A DNA stretch of 13,398 nt, from positions 1 to 13,398 of the forward strand of contig QNBQ01000012.1 in NCBI GenBank assembly GCA_003645735.1, in the 5' to 3' direction. Under the pieces are notes generated by a model. That model saw nothing but the letters and a program-made list of their open reading frames with translations, did no database searches and was not told the DNA's origin. Origin of the DNA: Candidatus Poribacteria bacterium (GTDB lineage: Bacteria > Poribacteria > WGA-4E > B28-G17). A program made the translations under genes and the position numbers. Each line of letters starts with the position of its first letter. The stretch's first letter is position 1. Positions 4,174-11,450 of the stretch are shown piece by piece.

Positions 4174-5739
4174 ATGATAACCGTCCCTATTTTCACGGTC
4201 TTCGAGGCCGAGCTTACGAGCGAGATGGACTACGACAGCCCGCTGTGGGACGTGACGGTGGAGGTGATCTTCACCTCGCCGTCCGGAAAACGGCATGTCG
4301 TGGAGGCTTTTTGGGACGGCGGGAGGACGTGGCGGATCAGGTTCTCGCCGGACGAGGTGGGGGAGTGGAAATGGGAGACGAGGTGTTCGACCGATGACAG
4401 GGGGTTAAAGGGCCGATCCGGCTCGTTCCGATGCGTCCCCTATGAGGGCGATAACCCGCTTTACAAACACGGCCCGATCCGCCTCTCCGACGATCGGCGC
4501 CGCCTCGTCTTCTCCGATGGGACGCCCTTCCTCTGGCTCGCCGACACCGCCTGGAACGGGGTGTTGAAGGCGAAGCCGAGGGATTGGGAGCGTTATCTGG
4601 AGAAGCGGCGCCAGCAAGGGTTCACGGTCATCCAGTTCGTCTCGACCCACTGGCGGGCCTTCCCCCAGGATGAGAACGGCGAGAGAGCCTACACCGGGAC
4701 GGAGCGGATAAAGATCAACCCCCGTTTCTTCAGGAAGCTCGATCCGAAGGTGGAGGCGATCAACCGGCACGGGCTGATCGCCGCGCCCGTCATCCTCTGG
4801 GCGCTGGGGGATATCTCGCCGGGCGTTGCTCTGAAGGAGGAGGACGCGATCAAGCTGGCCGGATACATCGTCGCCAGGTGGGGGGCCTATCAGGTGATCT
4901 GGATACTGGGCGGGGATGGGAACTACAAGGGGGAGCGGGCCGAGCGGTGGAGGAGGATAGGCCGCGCGGTTTTCGGGGATCGGCACGACCGGCTCGTCAC
5001 GATGCATCCGGGCGGGAGGATGTGGGTCGCCGGTGAGTTCCGGGATGAGGAGTGGTATGATTTCATTGGCTATCAAAGCGGGCATGGGGACGGGGTCGAT
5101 CACCTGAGCTGGCTCGTCTTCGGGCCGCCGGCGCGGGAGCGGTCGAAGGAGCCGCCCAGGCCCGTGATCAATTTGGAGCCGAATTACGAGGCGCACCTGG
5201 CCTACCAATCGCGCCGCCCCTTCACGGCCTACCACGTCCGAAGGGCGCTTTACTGGAGCCTGTTGATCTCCCCGACCGCCGGGGTCACCTACGGACATCA
5301 CGGGGTGTGGTTCTGGGCCGAGAGGCCGGAGGTGCCGACCGATCACCCGCACAGCGGGGTCGCCCCGCCGTGGCACGAGGCGATCGGAAGCGAGGGGGCG
5401 AGGTGCGTGGGGCATCTCAGGAAGTTGTTCGATTCGATCCCCTGGTGGAAACTCTGGCCTGCTCAGGAGCTTCTGGCCGAACAGCCCGGCACGCCCCAGG
5501 AGCCGCATAAGTTCATCGCCGCCGCCAAATCCGAGGACGGCTCGCTCGCGGTCATCTACACACCTATGGGAGGGAGGATCATGTTAAACGCCGCGCTTTT
5601 GAAGCTCCCCGCCGCCGCGAGGTGGTTCAATCCCAGGACGGGGGAGTGGAGGGAGGCCGGGAATATAGTTGAGCCGGGGGTTCTAAAACTTCGAACTCCC
5701 GACGACGGAGATTGGGCCTTGGTCATCTCGGCGGATTGA
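4174..5739 (+). CDS. DUF5060/DUF4038 apiosidase-like glycoside hydrolase (GH140-like)
   Basis: The protein has 521 residues. ATG 4174 follows AGGAGGTGG and lies 12 bases after the previous stop. Residues about 1-90 look like the DUF5060 N-terminal beta domain (tryptophan-rich, VGEWKWE at 62-68). Residues about 95-430 are a DUF4038 TIM barrel (DGTPFLWLADTAWNG at 115-129). Candidate catalytic residues are D248 in WILGGDGN and E335 in NLEPNYE, matching the Asp/Glu pair described for GH140 apiosidases. The C-terminal part (about 445-520) is a beta domain like the putative collagen-binding domain common in this family, ending LKLRTPDDGDWALVI. No signal peptide is visible, which is odd beside two partners with export signals: the enzyme may be cytoplasmic and act on imported oligosaccharides. 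Apiose specificity is only family inference. Confidence 0.85.
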   Translation: MITVPIFTVFEAELTSEMDYDSPLWDVTVEVIFTSPSGKRHVVEAFWDGGRTWRIRFSPDEVGEWKWETRCSTDDRGLKGRSGSFRCVPYEGDNPLYKHGPIRLSDDRRRLVFSDGTPFLWLADTAWNGVLKAKPRDWERYLEKRRQQGFTVIQFVSTHWRAFPQDENGERAYTGTERIKINPRFFRKLDPKVEAINRHGLIAAPVILWALGDISPGVALKEEDAIKLAGYIVARWGAYQVIWILGGDGNYKGERAERWRRIGRAVFGDRHDRLVTMHPGGRMWVAGEFRDEEWYDFIGYQSGHGDGVDHLSWLVFGPPARERSKEPPRPVINLEPNYEAHLAYQSRRPFTAYHVRRALYWSLLISPTAGVTYGHHGVWFWAERPEVPTDHPHSGVAPPWHEAIGSEGARCVGHLRKLFDSIPWWKLWPAQELLAEQPGTPQEPHKFIAAAKSEDGSLAVIYTPMGGRIMLNAALLKLPAAARWFNPRTGEWREAGNIVEPGVLKLRTPDDGDWALVISAD

Positions 5740-5742
5740 ACC

Positions 5743-5756
5743 CCCTCAACGGAGGG
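5743..5756. terminator. Hairpin after the apiosidase-like gene
   Basis: CCCTC-AACG-GAGGG is a perfect 5-base stem with a 4-base loop, 4 bases after the TGA of the operon's last gene. There is no T-run, so classic intrinsic termination is uncertain. It may instead protect transcript ends. Confidence 0.35.
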
Positions 5757-5784
5757 CCGAGGCGATCAAAGTATCTCCTGCGCT

Positions 5785-5802
5785 TCCCCTCCATTGAGGG
5801 GA
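5785..5802. terminator. Hairpin between convergent genes
   Basis: TCCCCTC-CATT-GAGGGGA is a perfect 7-base stem with a 4-base loop in the 96-base gap between the plus operon and the converging sigma-factor gene. TTTTCCCC lies about 10 bases to its right on the plus strand. It could act for both directions. Together with the hairpin at 5743-5756 this is all that is visible in the gap. Confidence 0.4.
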
Positions 5803-5835
5803 TCCGACAGGTTTTCCCCACCCAGTCGGCATATA

Positions 5836-8652
5836 TCACCTATCGACCGCAGCCGTAGCTCTGGTGACGAACGCTATATACCATCGGTTGCCTTTTTGCG
5901 AGGCGACTACAAGCAGATCCTCGAAAACCCTTCCGCTTTCCTCGTCCTTCCACCTGTAGCGCCATCTGTTCCCCAAGGCCATCGGCAGGTAATCCTCGCC
6001 GAGCTCCTTTACCTGATGCTCCACCAGCTGTATATCCGTCACCCGCCCGTTTTTGTGCTGATACAGCAGCCGCACCAACCCCACCCCGGGCGCAAACCAC
6101 GCCCTTTTAACCCCGGCATAGTAGCCTCGTATCCGCTCGATCTCAGGGACGAGCTCCTTCTCCTCCCCGCTGGCCGATATGGTCGTCTCTATTAGAGCAC
6201 ATCCCTCGAACTCCCCTGCTGGGACCTCGACCCTCTCATCCTTGCTCACGAGGACGCTCCCCACCTTCATGTGGTCGCCGGTTACGGAGCCGTTCACGGC
6301 GATCCCTATGTTCCACCCGTCGTAAAGCGAACTGCCCACCTCCTGGGACAGAAGCTCCGCTCCTGAGAACGGCTCATACCAGAACAGATCGGTCATCGGT
6401 GTTCCTTCAGATCCCGAAGGACGCTCCCCGATCGAGCTTCGATCCGATCCTTTGGAATACAAACCGCCTTCGCGTTCGATCAAGCAACCGACCCCTCGGA
6501 TATAGAAACACCGCCGGGACGGAGGCGATCCGATCATCTCCCTCGCCGTCTCCGAGAGGGACGTATAAGAGGCGGAGAGGTAAGCATCGCCCCCCTCGGC
6601 CGCTATATCAGCTGCCTTCCTGTAAAGCTCGGCAGCTCGCTCGTATTCCCCTCTCAGCAGGTGCTCCTTCGCCAACGCCCCGAGAGCTTCCATGATCTTC
6701 CTCCTATCGCCTATCTTCCGAGCGAGGCGAAGCTTCTCCTCACGCCATCTCACTTTATCCTCATCCGACAGCCCCTCCCTCGCCTCTTTAAGCAGCCACC
6801 GGGCATCGATCAGCCTCGGCTCATCGCCCAAAGCCTTGTAGATCTCGATCAACCGCTCATAGCAGTCGATCCCCCTCTCCTTGGATATCCAGGCGATCCA
6901 TCTGAGGATAGCGGCTTCCCCGGCTAAATCGCCCGACTCCCTCTCCAGCTCCGCTATCCCCTCAAGATAGCTCAGAGCCCCGCCTCTCCCCTTCACGCCC
7001 ACCGTAGCCGATGAGATATAAAACGTGTTCCCACAGCAGCTCACAACCCTGCACACATCCTCGAACATCTCCTCCGGCGAGTGATCCTTCGTCCAACGGT
7101 AACGCCACATCCTCCCGATCGATAGGGGGAAATATCCCTCGCCACCTGAGCCGGCGTGCTCAACGAGGTGGACGACCCATGTCATTCCGTTCTGATCCTC
7201 ATGACGCAGCTTCACCAGACCCACGCCGGGGGCGAACCACGTCAGCCTCGTCCCGCAGTAGCTCCGGGTTCTGAACTCCGTTGCAACGCCCACGTTTGGA
7301 GGGGTTATGACCGTCCTAACCCTGAGACACCTTTCAAACCTCCCGGCGGGCGTCAGGACGAGGTCGTCATCGCTCTCAACGACCGACCTCGCTATGAGCT
7401 CGTCCCCCTCCTCGATCCCCCAGCTCAGGCCGTCCGGCCGGCGCGTGATCCGATCCTCCCAGGTCTCCCCGACCTTCGGGGATGGCTTCAGAAACCTCCT
7501 CGGACGGAGCAGATGGACGAGGGCGGCGCATCGGGACGGGCATCCCCATGAGTAGTTGCGGACGGATTTGGGGTCGAGGAACACGTATCCCTCATCGGCG
7601 AGCTGGACGGGGAAGACCGCCATGACGTATCCCCCGGGCTGTCCCGGCCTCCACATCCCCGGCAACATATCCGCCAGATCCAAAGCCGCTCTCGTCAACG
7701 CCTCGTTCTCCCTATCGCCGAGCTCGGAGAACAGCTTCAGAGCCTCCTCGGCCCTCCGTCGCATCTCACTGTATTCGCCGCGGCGACAATGGGCGATGAA
7801 GAGCGCCTTGAGGACCTCCGCTTCCCTCCCTTTATCGCCTCGCTTTCGAGCGAGCTTCAAGGCGGACTCGTAATCCTCAACCCCCTTCTCCGGCTCGCCG
7901 AGCCATGTGGATCGGGCTTCGCCCAACATCAAAAGCAGCTCCACTTGAGCTCCGACATCCCCGAGCTTCCCGGCGGCTTCCATAGCCTCACGACATGACC
8001 GGATGAACTCCTCACCTGCCCACCGCCCTCGGGCCTCCCTCGCCCTTTTCATCGCCTCGTCCAAAACCCTCCTGATGAACTCATCGGACAGCCTCTCCTT
8101 CCGCAAGCCCTCTTCGATCAACCTCATCAACCTCCCCTTAAGCTGTCTTTTCGCCCGGTGCATCCTCCCCTCGACGGTGCTTAAAGGGACGTCGAGGAAC
8201 CGGGCGATGTCCCTGTAGCTGAGGCCGGTGAGGTAATAGAGGGTTATGACGAGCCTGTTCCCCTCGGGCAGCTGACTCAACGCTTCGGCGAGAAGCCTGC
8301 GCATCTCCTCCCGCTCGATCTCCTCGGCGGGCGAGGGGACCGTTCCCAGCAACTCTTCATCGACCTCCTCCAACGGGACGCTCTCCCTCCGCCCCCGCAT
8401 CCACATCTTGCAACAATTGACGGTTATCCGCCGGAGCCACGAGGCGAACCTGTCGGGATCGCGGAGCTGCGATAGCTTAAGATAGGCGGTTATGAAAACC
8501 TCCTGGGCTATGTCCTCGGCGTCCTCGAAGCTTCCCGTCATGTGATAGGCCAGCCCCTGAACGGCTCCCCGATACCTGCGCACAAGCTCGCCGAAGCTGT
8601 CCACATCCCCGGATAAAGCTCTCCTGACCAGCTCCTCATCGCCTGGCTTCAA
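5836..8652 (-). CDS. ECF-type sigma factor fused to two TPR/beta-domain modules
   Basis: The protein has 938 residues from a TTG start (8652-8650) preceded by GAGGAGGGAT. Residues 1-180 are a complete sigma-70 family ECF factor: region 2 with DAEDIAQEVF (44-53) and SWLRRITVNCCK (71-82), region 4 helix-turn-helix with GLSYRDIARFLDVPLSTVEGRMHRAKRQL cut into 143-171. Ordinary ECF factors stop there, near 180-200 residues. This one continues with TPR-like helices (about 200-325), a beta-rich domain (about 340-553), more TPR-like helices (about 555-705) and a second beta-rich domain (about 715-938). The beta domains share WFAPGVGLV (472-480 and 852-860), a PAG-x-FE-x-C motif (435-442 and 811-818) and a G-x-x-W-R-Y-R-W motif (513-520 and 894-901). 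No membrane segment is seen, so the extension is probably cytoplasmic and may sense a ligand or partner or hold the sigma part inactive. No anti-sigma gene lies beside it. Role inferred, target genes unknown. Confidence 0.9.
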   Translation of the reverse strand: MKPGDEELVRRALSGDVDSFGELVRRYRGAVQGLAYHMTGSFEDAEDIAQEVFITAYLKLSQLRDPDRFASWLRRITVNCCKMWMRGRRESVPLEEVDEELLGTVPSPAEEIEREEMRRLLAEALSQLPEGNRLVITLYYLTGLSYRDIARFLDVPLSTVEGRMHRAKRQLKGRLMRLIEEGLRKERLSDEFIRRVLDEAMKRAREARGRWAGEEFIRSCREAMEAAGKLGDVGAQVELLLMLGEARSTWLGEPEKGVEDYESALKLARKRGDKGREAEVLKALFIAHCRRGEYSEMRRRAEEALKLFSELGDRENEALTRAALDLADMLPGMWRPGQPGGYVMAVFPVQLADEGYVFLDPKSVRNYSWGCPSRCAALVHLLRPRRFLKPSPKVGETWEDRITRRPDGLSWGIEEGDELIARSVVESDDDLVLTPAGRFERCLRVRTVITPPNVGVATEFRTRSYCGTRLTWFAPGVGLVKLRHEDQNGMTWVVHLVEHAGSGGEGYFPLSIGRMWRYRWTKDHSPEEMFEDVCRVVSCCGNTFYISSATVGVKGRGGALSYLEGIAELERESGDLAGEAAILRWIAWISKERGIDCYERLIEIYKALGDEPRLIDARWLLKEAREGLSDEDKVRWREEKLRLARKIGDRRKIMEALGALAKEHLLRGEYERAAELYRKAADIAAEGGDAYLSASYTSLSETAREMIGSPPSRRCFYIRGVGCLIEREGGLYSKGSDRSSIGERPSGSEGTPMTDLFWYEPFSGAELLSQEVGSSLYDGWNIGIAVNGSVTGDHMKVGSVLVSKDERVEVPAGEFEGCALIETTISASGEEKELVPEIERIRGYYAGVKRAWFAPGVGLVRLLYQHKNGRVTDIQLVEHQVKELGEDYLPMALGNRWRYRWKDEESGRVFEDLLVVASQKGNRWYIAFVTRATAAVDR

Positions 8653-8757
8653 TCCCTATCCCTCCTCGACCGACCTCCATAAATTTAGATGCGCCCAGTT
8701 CGAGAGAACTTACGGCCCCCAATGAATCGGGTCTGATCGCGACGCCGGACTTCCGGG

Positions 8758-9296
8758 AAAGTTTACCATATCGCCTGGACAGGCGTGCCCGCTTGATGTG
8801 AACCCTTATCCCTTTCCAATTCCAGCGGGATGGGCAGCACAAGGGCGGTGATGCAGCAGAAGGGGATCTTCGATATGGCCGAGGAGATGGGGTGATTCGA
8901 CATGAAGGACAGCCGCTGGGAGAGAGGCTTGTTTTTCCCGAAGCTCTTCATCGAGGCGGAGAGCATCGCGCAGACCTGCTGCCTAAAAACCCATCGGTTC
9001 GGACTCGGTCGGCATAGTGGCCAAATTTTCCCGATCGATAACCACAACTTCATGAACGAGCTGCACTCCTCCCCCACATGAGGCTGATGATAGTGGTTTA
9101 TCCCGGGGTGATGATCGCGGGAACCGATAGGGTTGCCGTGGACGCGGTGGGCGTGGCGATACTGAAGCTGATGGACGCCACGCCGCAGGTGTTGGCGGGC
9201 GAAATTTTCGATCAGGAGCGGATAAAGCGGGCGGTCGAGCCGATAAGCTGCCCGCCAGATGGGGCGAGTTGTAGTAAGGTGGAAGGTGAAGAGTAG
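8758..9296 (+). pseudogene. DUF362-family protein remnant
   Basis: Pieces of a DUF362 protein occur in order on the plus strand, in shifting frames: YHIAW (about 8761-8775), SSGMGSTRAVM to AEEMG (8821-8892) then TGA at 8893-8895; LFFPKLFIEAESIAQTCCL then KTHRF in the same frame (ending about 9000); DSVGIVAKFS in the next frame (9002-9031); PIDNHNFMNELHSSP (9031-9075); and HMRLMI plus VMIAGTDRVAVDAVGVAIL (9075-9170) in a third frame. Compared with my recollection of intact members, about 30 residues are missing after HMRLMI and some around the stop. DUF362 proteins often carry iron-sulfur or unknown redox functions; this copy cannot make a full product. The gene presumably lost function recently, since motifs are still clear. 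The exact ends are uncertain. Confidence 0.75.
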
Positions 9297-11066: not shown

Positions 11067-11450
11067 CTACTCTATCTCGGCCATCGGCACCTCGGGCGAT
11101 CTGGGGTTCGGGTAAAGCTTCATCTCCCTCGGCTCGACTATCAGATCCAGCTCCTCCATCACTATGGCCCCGAGCAGCCCGTATTCTTTGTGTGGCTCGA
11201 TTATCGCATCGAACACCCCTTTTCTGCCGCACACCTCAACCTCGACCCCGTAGACCACGTCCCTAAGCTCCGTCCGCTCGTCGGCGTATTTGACCTGCTG
11301 TTTTCTGATCACCGGGAACTTGAGCCTCTCCTGAACCCACCCGGGCAGGACGAGCATCGTGGCGCCGCTGTCCACCTTGACCCTGAGCTCCAAAGCCTCC
11401 GAGCCGGTTATGATGTTCCTGACCTTGATGGTCGCATAGGCCACCCCCAT
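11067..11450 (-). CDS. Clan AA (retropepsin-like) aspartic protease
   Basis: The protein has 127 residues from ATG 11450 with GGGAGGTGAG upstream. The catalytic motif D27-S-G-A-T sits in VKVDSGATMLVLP. A later hydrophobic-hydrophobic-Gly motif in YGLLGAIVMEELDLIV (about 90-105) matches the second half of the retropepsin fold. Size and layout fit the single-domain bacterial/archaeal clan AA family (AF_0612-like), which act as dimers. No signal peptide is seen, so it is likely cytoplasmic. It lies 17 bases after the cyclase-like gene and 59 before the lipoprotein gene. The substrate is unknown. Confidence 0.85.
   Translation of the reverse strand: MGVAYATIKVRNIITGSEALELRVKVDSGATMLVLPGWVQERLKFPVIRKQQVKYADERTELRDVVYGVEVEVCGRKGVFDAIIEPHKEYGLLGAIVMEELDLIVEPREMKLYPNPRSPEVPMAEIE

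Follow-up and report, generated by a model that had tools for sequence, protein, structure and literature searches.

A Poribacteria ECF sigma factor with a duplicated TPR-beta tail built on a circularly permuted DUF3108-like module: a candidate one-protein switch

A stretch of 13,398 nucleotides from Candidatus Poribacteria (contig QNBQ01000012.1, hereafter the window) carries on its minus strand a gene for an extracytoplasmic function (ECF) sigma factor, whose long C-terminal tail consists of two tandem units, each composed of a helical tetratricopeptide repeat (TPR) part followed by a beta module. Judged from its sequence, from a structural model and by analogy with other ECF sigma factors, the protein is probably a self-contained cytoplasmic switch in which the tail controls the sigma factor in cis and no separate anti-sigma factor is needed. 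A sequence-only reading of the same DNA had placed an ECF sigma factor followed by TPR, beta, TPR and beta parts at this site; that order was confirmed, and the strand, which the reading did not give, is the minus strand. Also new relative to that reading are the permutation within the beta module, the occurrence of the architecture in several phyla and the existence of forms with a single unit. The gene and its sigma core are arranged as follows.

5836..8652 (read 8652 to 5836), minus strand: ECF sigma gene with duplicated TPR-beta tail; 938 amino acids, TTG start, stop included, open frame
8661..8667, minus strand: likely ribosome-binding site GAGGAGG, 8 nt upstream of the TTG, as read from the sequence
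8371..8652, minus strand: sigma region 2 (sigma2), residues 1-94
8107..8331, minus strand: sigma region 4 (sigma4), residues 108-182

Reading of the frame on the minus strand revealed no internal stop across the 938 codons, and the plus strand was ruled out as the coding strand by eleven stops in frame 1 of 5836-8652. Both sigma regions scored above the curated cut-offs of Pfam (Sigma70_r2, PF04542, 4.7e-15, 55.6 bits against a cut-off of 24; Sigma70_r4_2, PF08281, 5.9e-15, 55.1 bits against 25.7), and the whole protein reached 100.5 with TIGR02937 (sigma70-ECF), for which the cut-off is 42.9. These profile matches indicated that the window protein is an ECF sigma factor of the sigma70 family. 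The hydropathy of the 938 residues gave no membrane segment, since the highest 19-residue value was only 1.05, in agreement with the earlier reading; among the predicted proteins P0001-P0033, two of the 33 narrowly exceeded 1.6, near residue 430. The tail was divided into the parts listed below, where the cut between the two parts of beta module 1 is our own.

7657..8097, minus strand: TPR1, alpha-helical repeats, residues 186-332
6988..7656, minus strand: beta module 1 (beta1), residues 333-555, permuted DUF3108-like barrel, from its own model and a profile match to 4fvs
7144..7656, minus strand: beta module 1, first part (h2), comprising the strands as far as APGVGLV / LVEH
6988..7143, minus strand: beta module 1, second part (h1), with the YFPLxxGxxWRYRW strands that are placed first in the exported-type relatives
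7480..7560, minus strand: most conserved tail segment, NYSWGCPSRCAALVHLLRPRRFL with flanks, residues 365-391, in beta module 1 only, from the alignment columns
6532..6987, minus strand: TPR2, residues 556-707, helical and the least conserved part, from model helices and profile likeness to TPR1
5839..6531, minus strand: beta module 2 (beta2), residues 708-938, from the PF21347 match and model strands 715-933
7213..7239, minus strand: WFAPGVGLV copy 1, residues 472-480
6073..6099, minus strand: WFAPGVGLV copy 2, residues 852-860
7327..7350, minus strand: PAGRFERC (PAGxFExC copy 1), residues 435-442
6199..6222, minus strand: PAGEFEGC (PAGxFExC copy 2), residues 811-818
7156..7167, minus strand: LVEH copy 1, residues 496-499
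6016..6027, minus strand: LVEH copy 2, residues 876-879
7093..7116, minus strand: GRMWRYRW (GxxWRYRW copy 1), residues 513-520
5950..5973, minus strand: GNRWRYRW (GxxWRYRW copy 2), residues 894-901

TPR1 was matched by Pfam TPR_12 (PF13424) at residues 242-308 (6.9e-08, 33.0 bits against a cut-off of 30.1). TPR2 stayed below the Pfam cut-off (PF07719, 23.7 against 27 bits), is helical in the model and resembles TPR1 by profile. An AlphaFold2 model based on 32 sequences, with a mean predicted local distance difference test score (pLDDT) of 87.1 and a predicted template modelling score (pTM) of 0.72, gave the order sigma2, sigma4, seven helices at 190-329, strands at 340-554, eight helices at 556-708 and strands at 715-933. 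Beta module 1, modelled alone from 13 of the 32 aligned sequences, reached a pLDDT of 85.4 and a pTM of 0.86, and its profile matched that of the lipoprotein BDI_3050 (PDB 4fvs) with E=9.5e-05. Beta module 2 was matched by DUF3108_like (PF21347) at residues 795-871 (2e-07, 31.5 bits against a cut-off of 27), over profile positions 129-193 of 199 only. A structure search listed no close PDB fold for the beta module, and searches of Pfam and PDB with the h1 part alone returned nothing useful.

The two TPR-beta units are homologous. Residues 185-555 and 556-938 were aligned by BLASTP with 105 bits (32% over 357 residues, E=5e-30), as against a best score of 24.3 bits when the second half was shuffled 200 times, and comparison of profiles gave E=1.4e-39 for whole units, 2e-32 for the beta parts alone and 2.6e-10 for the TPR parts alone. 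The four motifs quoted by the sequence-only reading (WFAPGVGLV, PAGxFExC, LVEH and GxxWRYRW) each occur exactly twice, once per half. Self-alignment, profiles and the AlphaFold2 order of helices and strands all bear out the duplication that it had proposed, and the C-terminal half, far from being unrepeated, is a repeat.

A positional test indicated that the DUF3108-like barrel formed by the beta part is circularly permuted. In the Pfam profile PF21347, the PAG...APGVGLV half sits at the end (positions 129-193 of 199), whereas in the sigma-fused modules the order is h2-h1, with the YFPLxxGxxWRYRW strands after the APGVGLV strands. The short relatives that lack a sigma part, 53 open reading frames (ORFs) of less than 460 amino acids in loci L027-L088, had h1 before h2 in 48 cases and after it in none, with no pair in four and an overlap in one. 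Twelve others of this range were dropped, either by name (L035, L037, L048 and L063, which are sigma-type or cut ORFs of Clostridia, and L033) or for a length above 460 (L051, L052, two of L065, L075 and two of L082). A match to h1 at a lax threshold (E<=10) was obtained in 49 of the 53 N-terminal parts compared to 12 of 53 shuffled ones, and the motif YFPL...W.Y was visible in most h1 matches of the short relatives. When whole-module profiles were used, the native and permuted versions gave almost equal scores for the short relatives, since most of the score comes from one half, and L033, L039, L044 and L046 scored 3 to 7 bits better with the permuted profile. In the multi-copy loci L033, L052 and L065, an h2-h1 stretch precedes a further h2, which leaves the phase unreadable. 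The permuted order is already present in single-module ECF sigma factors (those of Armatimonadota and the ECF-beta-M61-like proteins); it therefore belongs to a stand-alone module and is not just a phase shift within a tandem.

Most of the short sigma-less relatives look exported, since upstream of the domain a hydrophobic 19-mer was present in 31 of the 53 and a lipobox-like motif in 33. The earlier remark that the beta parts resemble modules of exported proteins was thus well placed: the module is of a kind otherwise seen in exported-type proteins, namely these short relatives, lipoprotein-M61 proteins and an M56/BlaR1-type membrane protein.

To place the tail among its relatives, 7994 candidates were scored and 39 proteins matched, of which 31 were aligned with the window protein (alignment A1) after leaving out P0002, which is the window's own, and the seven weak matches P0034-P0040. 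The full layout was present in 24 of the 32 rows, the window's included, giving 23 full-length homologues; the other eight rows comprise seven partial proteins and P0030, which begins after sigma2 because of an in-frame stop. Source labels of the relatives include Latescibacterota (P0023, P0027, P0032) and Poribacteria (P0030). Within the window's phylum, 48 of 84 genomes contained tail matches at E<=1e-10; two of the 84 have full-length copies, and a third (G005) has two contig-edge pieces that are alike to P0033 by eye. A scan of GTDB r220 species genomes for W[FY]A[PRA]GVGLV yielded 298 stretches and 104 confirmed relatives, the best 80 of which were kept. Armatimonadota contributed 11 matches in 9 of 201 genomes; ten of the matched genes encode sigma plus exactly one beta unit in a single frame, and the eleventh, the sigma-less L136, is cut by a contig end. 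In one family of Clostridia, matches were found in 51 of 146 genomes, and all ten distinct genes checked encode sigma plus two beta units. As far as the genes of Armatimonadota, Clostridia and the window's family show, a sigma factor joined to one or two beta units is thus an architecture that recurs across phyla. The homologue search suggested by the sequence-only reading also bore on its caveats about the fusion: an assembly artefact was ruled out, as many other contigs from several phyla contain sigma and tail fused in this way, and no sigma and tail encoded by separate genes were found among the homologues, L136 merely ending at a contig edge. Viral contigs were searched and contained no relative. 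Four clostridial proteins (L150, L152, L153 and L156, 1049-1086 amino acids) have an extra C-terminal segment beyond the second beta module, and in L156 this segment has weak TPR matches.

In a tree of 65 modules, built without the short row L111_1, one group (92/72) held the first units of the window's family and another (98/98) held 13 of its 14 second units, with the second unit of P0033 beside the first units; the Clostridia units fell together (91/88, not starred). Because first, second and clostridial units group apart, the tree suggests separate doublings in Clostridia and in the window's family, and approximately unbiased (AU) tests keep alternatives in play. Holding the first units of the window's family and of Clostridia together, or their second units together, was not rejected (p-AU 0.11 and 0.09), and a single clade of first and second units of the window's family, absent from the tree, was not rejected either (p-AU 0.14).

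Conservation was assessed over the 24 full-length rows. Mean pairwise identity was 0.56 for sigma2, 0.53 for sigma4, 0.47 for TPR1, 0.53 for beta1, 0.32 for TPR2 and 0.45 for beta2, and rose to 0.59 in residues 333-400 of beta1 (0.62 without P0033). Columns of at least 95% identity numbered 35 in beta1, 18 in sigma2, 17 in beta2, 15 in TPR1, 10 in sigma4 and one in TPR2. By these measures beta1 is conserved about as much as the sigma domains, and it therefore looks likely to have a specific, constrained job. This bears on the view that the tail is non-regulatory, being a passenger or enzyme domain or the product of an assembly fusion. The Pfam name of PF21347 carries no known function and TPR2 diverges fast, yet beta1 is conserved like sigma and the same fusion is met again in many contigs of several phyla, and we regard a non-regulatory tail as very improbable. 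The cysteines of beta1 are well kept (C371 in 26 of 32 rows, C375 in 29, C442 in 32, C466 in 31 and C534 in 28). Redox or metal sensing by these cysteines was set aside as the mechanism of the family, P0030 lacking four of them and other members one or two.

A recognised gap concerns those ECF sigma factors that have no anti-sigma partner. According to a 2022 review (PMC8999054), at least 26 ECF groups have N- or C-terminal extensions, 15 of which are still to be studied, and both inhibitory and activating C-terminal tails acting in cis have been described for other ECFs. Since a conserved tail follows sigma4 and no neighbouring anti-sigma gene was found, the window protein is by its sequence an ECF with a C-terminal extension, a broad known kind. 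Pfam detected no anti-sigma domain among the 17 ORFs that were scanned of the 44 listed in the window, which fits the earlier statement that no anti-sigma gene lies beside the sigma gene. For the one-protein switch that we favour, the TPR-beta units would be the regulatory part acting in cis. The barrel may bind a small molecule or a partner, and the TPR part may relay its state by contacting either sigma2/sigma4 or a partner protein, which would change how the sigma factor joins RNA polymerase or reads promoters. The sign could be either, the unbound tail being inhibitory as proposed for ECF41 or the tail being needed for activity as in ECF42. The conserved fusion, the conservation of beta1, the absence of a neighbour recurring at 12 homologous loci (gene lists compared by eye) and the recurrence of the beta modules in a receptor-like context, that of an M56/BlaR1-type protein (L026), speak for this switch.

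The closest known systems differ from the window protein in defined ways. ECF41, with its SnoaL tail, and ECF238/CorE, with its cysteine-rich tail, are likewise one-protein ECF systems controlled by the tail; no SnoaL match at E<=0.01 was found in the window protein, and its sigma2-sigma4 linker (residues 88-107) has no cysteine and thus no CXC, the conserved cysteines lying in beta1 instead. The sequence-only reading had raised an intramolecular anti-sigma, which in its strict form, by analogy with the ECF41 tails, would have the apo tail block sigma2/sigma4 until a ligand of the barrel releases them. We consider this possible and hold it tentatively. Pfam found no known anti-sigma domain in the protein, and since the TPR part separates sigma from the barrel, direct contact between the two is not required; moreover, because ECF42 is reported to need its tail for activity, inhibition is just one of the two signs that the tail could have.

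ECF42 (e.g. Sven_0747) shares with the window protein TPR repeats directly after sigma4 and the lack of a detected anti-sigma gene. Its tail is described in the same review (PMC8999054) as about 200 residues long, TPR-rich and essential for activity, with a YCII-domain neighbour, whereas the tail of the window protein has about 755 residues, more than half of them beta, in two TPR-beta units. An activating adaptor of the ECF42 kind, in which the tail is required and either recruits or is switched by another protein rather than a small ligand, is also conceivable, if somewhat doubtful. TPR1 directly follows sigma4, and the sigma part and TPR1 can be aligned to an Armatimonadota gene in a single block (41%, residues 4-316). 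The matches of the TPR part include the protein-binding LGN and RapF, and the ECF42 tail is itself reported essential for activity (PMC8999054). Yet no partner gene recurred at 12 homologous loci, where gene lists were compared by eye without a family scan, and no YCII match was found by Pfam among the 17 window ORFs scanned, the contig ending with the window. Large C-terminal additions are also present in ECF57 (WD40-like tails) and ECF48/52/53 (membrane-spanning tails); Pfam found no WD40 match in the window protein, and its tail, unlike those of ECF48/52/53, has no membrane segment. A tandem extension of TPR and permuted DUF3108-like parts is not mentioned in the available text of the review (PMC8999054); our literature search was limited, and absence is not claimed.

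Several observations weigh against a tail-controlled switch of the form proposed here. The long tail is rare in the window's own phylum, where it was found at full length in two of 84 genomes. In the homologue from 'Candidatus Poribacteria bacterium co234_bin45' (L009/G011), the sigma part is interrupted by one in-frame TAG, and of the five cysteines conserved in beta1 four are missing. TPR2 is weakly conserved (identity 0.32, gap fraction 0.17), and the beta module matches solved structures weakly in fold, with no Foldseek match at E<=0.001, so that a LolA / YmcC-type barrel is a tentative candidate fold for it. When ten genes of Armatimonadota and Clostridia were scanned with Pfam, the first helical stretch reached the TPR cut-off only in L010 and, just, in L016, and TPR was weak or absent in L013, L023, L134, L140, L145, L147, L150 and L156; no TPR at cut-off lay between two beta units in these genes. 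The identification of the helical stretches as TPR is well shown for the window's family. The TAG of L009 lies upstream of position 8211; an equal match is G011:C114:216087-218891, and the predicted protein is P0030.

The beta module is also used by other proteins. Relatives of PF21347 such as BDI_3050 (4fvs), to which the PAGxF...WYAPGVGLV half is matched by profile, are exported-type, mostly single-domain and ordered h1-h2, whereas the window protein is cytoplasmic, ordered h2-h1 and tandem. The same permuted module is fused to an ECF sigma factor in two further kinds of protein, which differ from the window protein in having one beta module and, in the scanned L112, L114 and L130, no TPR match, followed by a peptidase-like or other domain. 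ECF-beta-M61-like proteins, without a membrane segment, were read in the window's phylum at L114, L118, L120, L123, L124 and L126; ECF-TM-beta proteins, which differ further in having a membrane segment, were read in the window's class at L112 and L125, with further domains after the beta module and a weak Big_5 match in L112. Lipoprotein-beta-beta-M61 proteins were read in the phylum at L111, L113, L115, L116, L119, L121 and L122. Pfam was run on L111, L112, L114 and two L130 genes, the rest being assigned by reading of the loci.

These fusions raise the possibility of a cytoplasmic decoy or mimic, in which the barrel, as a copy of an exported module, would signal how much of that module's ligand or client is present ahead of export. 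ECF-beta-M61-like genes lie near beta-M61 genes in f2-family genomes of the window's class, the two sharing position 7608 at L130, and the beta modules of ECF-beta-M61-like proteins group with those of lipoprotein-M61 proteins (100/97). The window's own modules, however, fall outside that group, and no exported beta gene was found among the scanned ORFs of the window; we consider a decoy improbable for this protein. The L130 gene (7608-10619, minus strand) encodes an ECF with one permuted beta module and an M61-peptidase-like domain without HExxH, and the beta-M61 gene with which it shares position 7608 (5212-7608) keeps HExxH. The ECF-beta-M61-like protein of L114 has HVVGY at the site where lipoprotein relatives have HEVFHIW. 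In a Planctomycetota M56/BlaR1-type peptidase (L026:1548-4448, plus strand; M56 E=1.7e-51), the last membrane segment is followed by two DUF3108-like modules, which are possibly a sensor domain for this receptor class.

If the barrel of the proposed switch binds a ligand, an exported-type module would have been re-used as a cytoplasmic signal sensor. The proteins form a natural series, from sigma with one beta unit or two, through sigma with beta and no TPR match, to sigma with a membrane segment and beta, which lets a one-protein switch be dissected. A wider history would make sigma-(TPR-beta)n an old one-component switch of four or more phyla: an exported, carrier-like barrel would have been circularly permuted, moved to the cytoplasm and made into a sensor that replaced both anti-sigma factor and membrane receptor, and Clostridia and Poribacteria/Latescibacterota would have doubled the unit independently. 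We offer this history as a conjecture that is unlikely to hold in full.

The sigma gene has the following neighbours in the window.

plus strand: sulfatase, protein with Collagen_bind_2, TIM barrel, apiosidase
minus strand: PD40 propeller, cyclase, aspartyl-protease-like protein, lipoprotein-like protein (by eye), GHMP kinase

A search of the window for Rfam families and tRNA found nothing, and the contig ends at 13398 together with the window. Between the GHMP kinase and the sigma gene lie 733 bp without a clear gene. This interval contains, at 8740-9260 on the plus strand, no intact gene; one frame there resembles a broken DUF362 protein, though the piece tried gave no Pfam match. At 11067-11450 on the minus strand, a 127-amino-acid aspartyl-protease-like protein was matched by PF13650 (E=1.6e-05). 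Elsewhere, L093 (G001) encodes a sigma factor with a tail of about 400 residues in which no likeness to the TPR-beta tail was noticed, and an ECF fusion alike to L093 by eye is present in the window's own genome (L002), where it runs off the locus.

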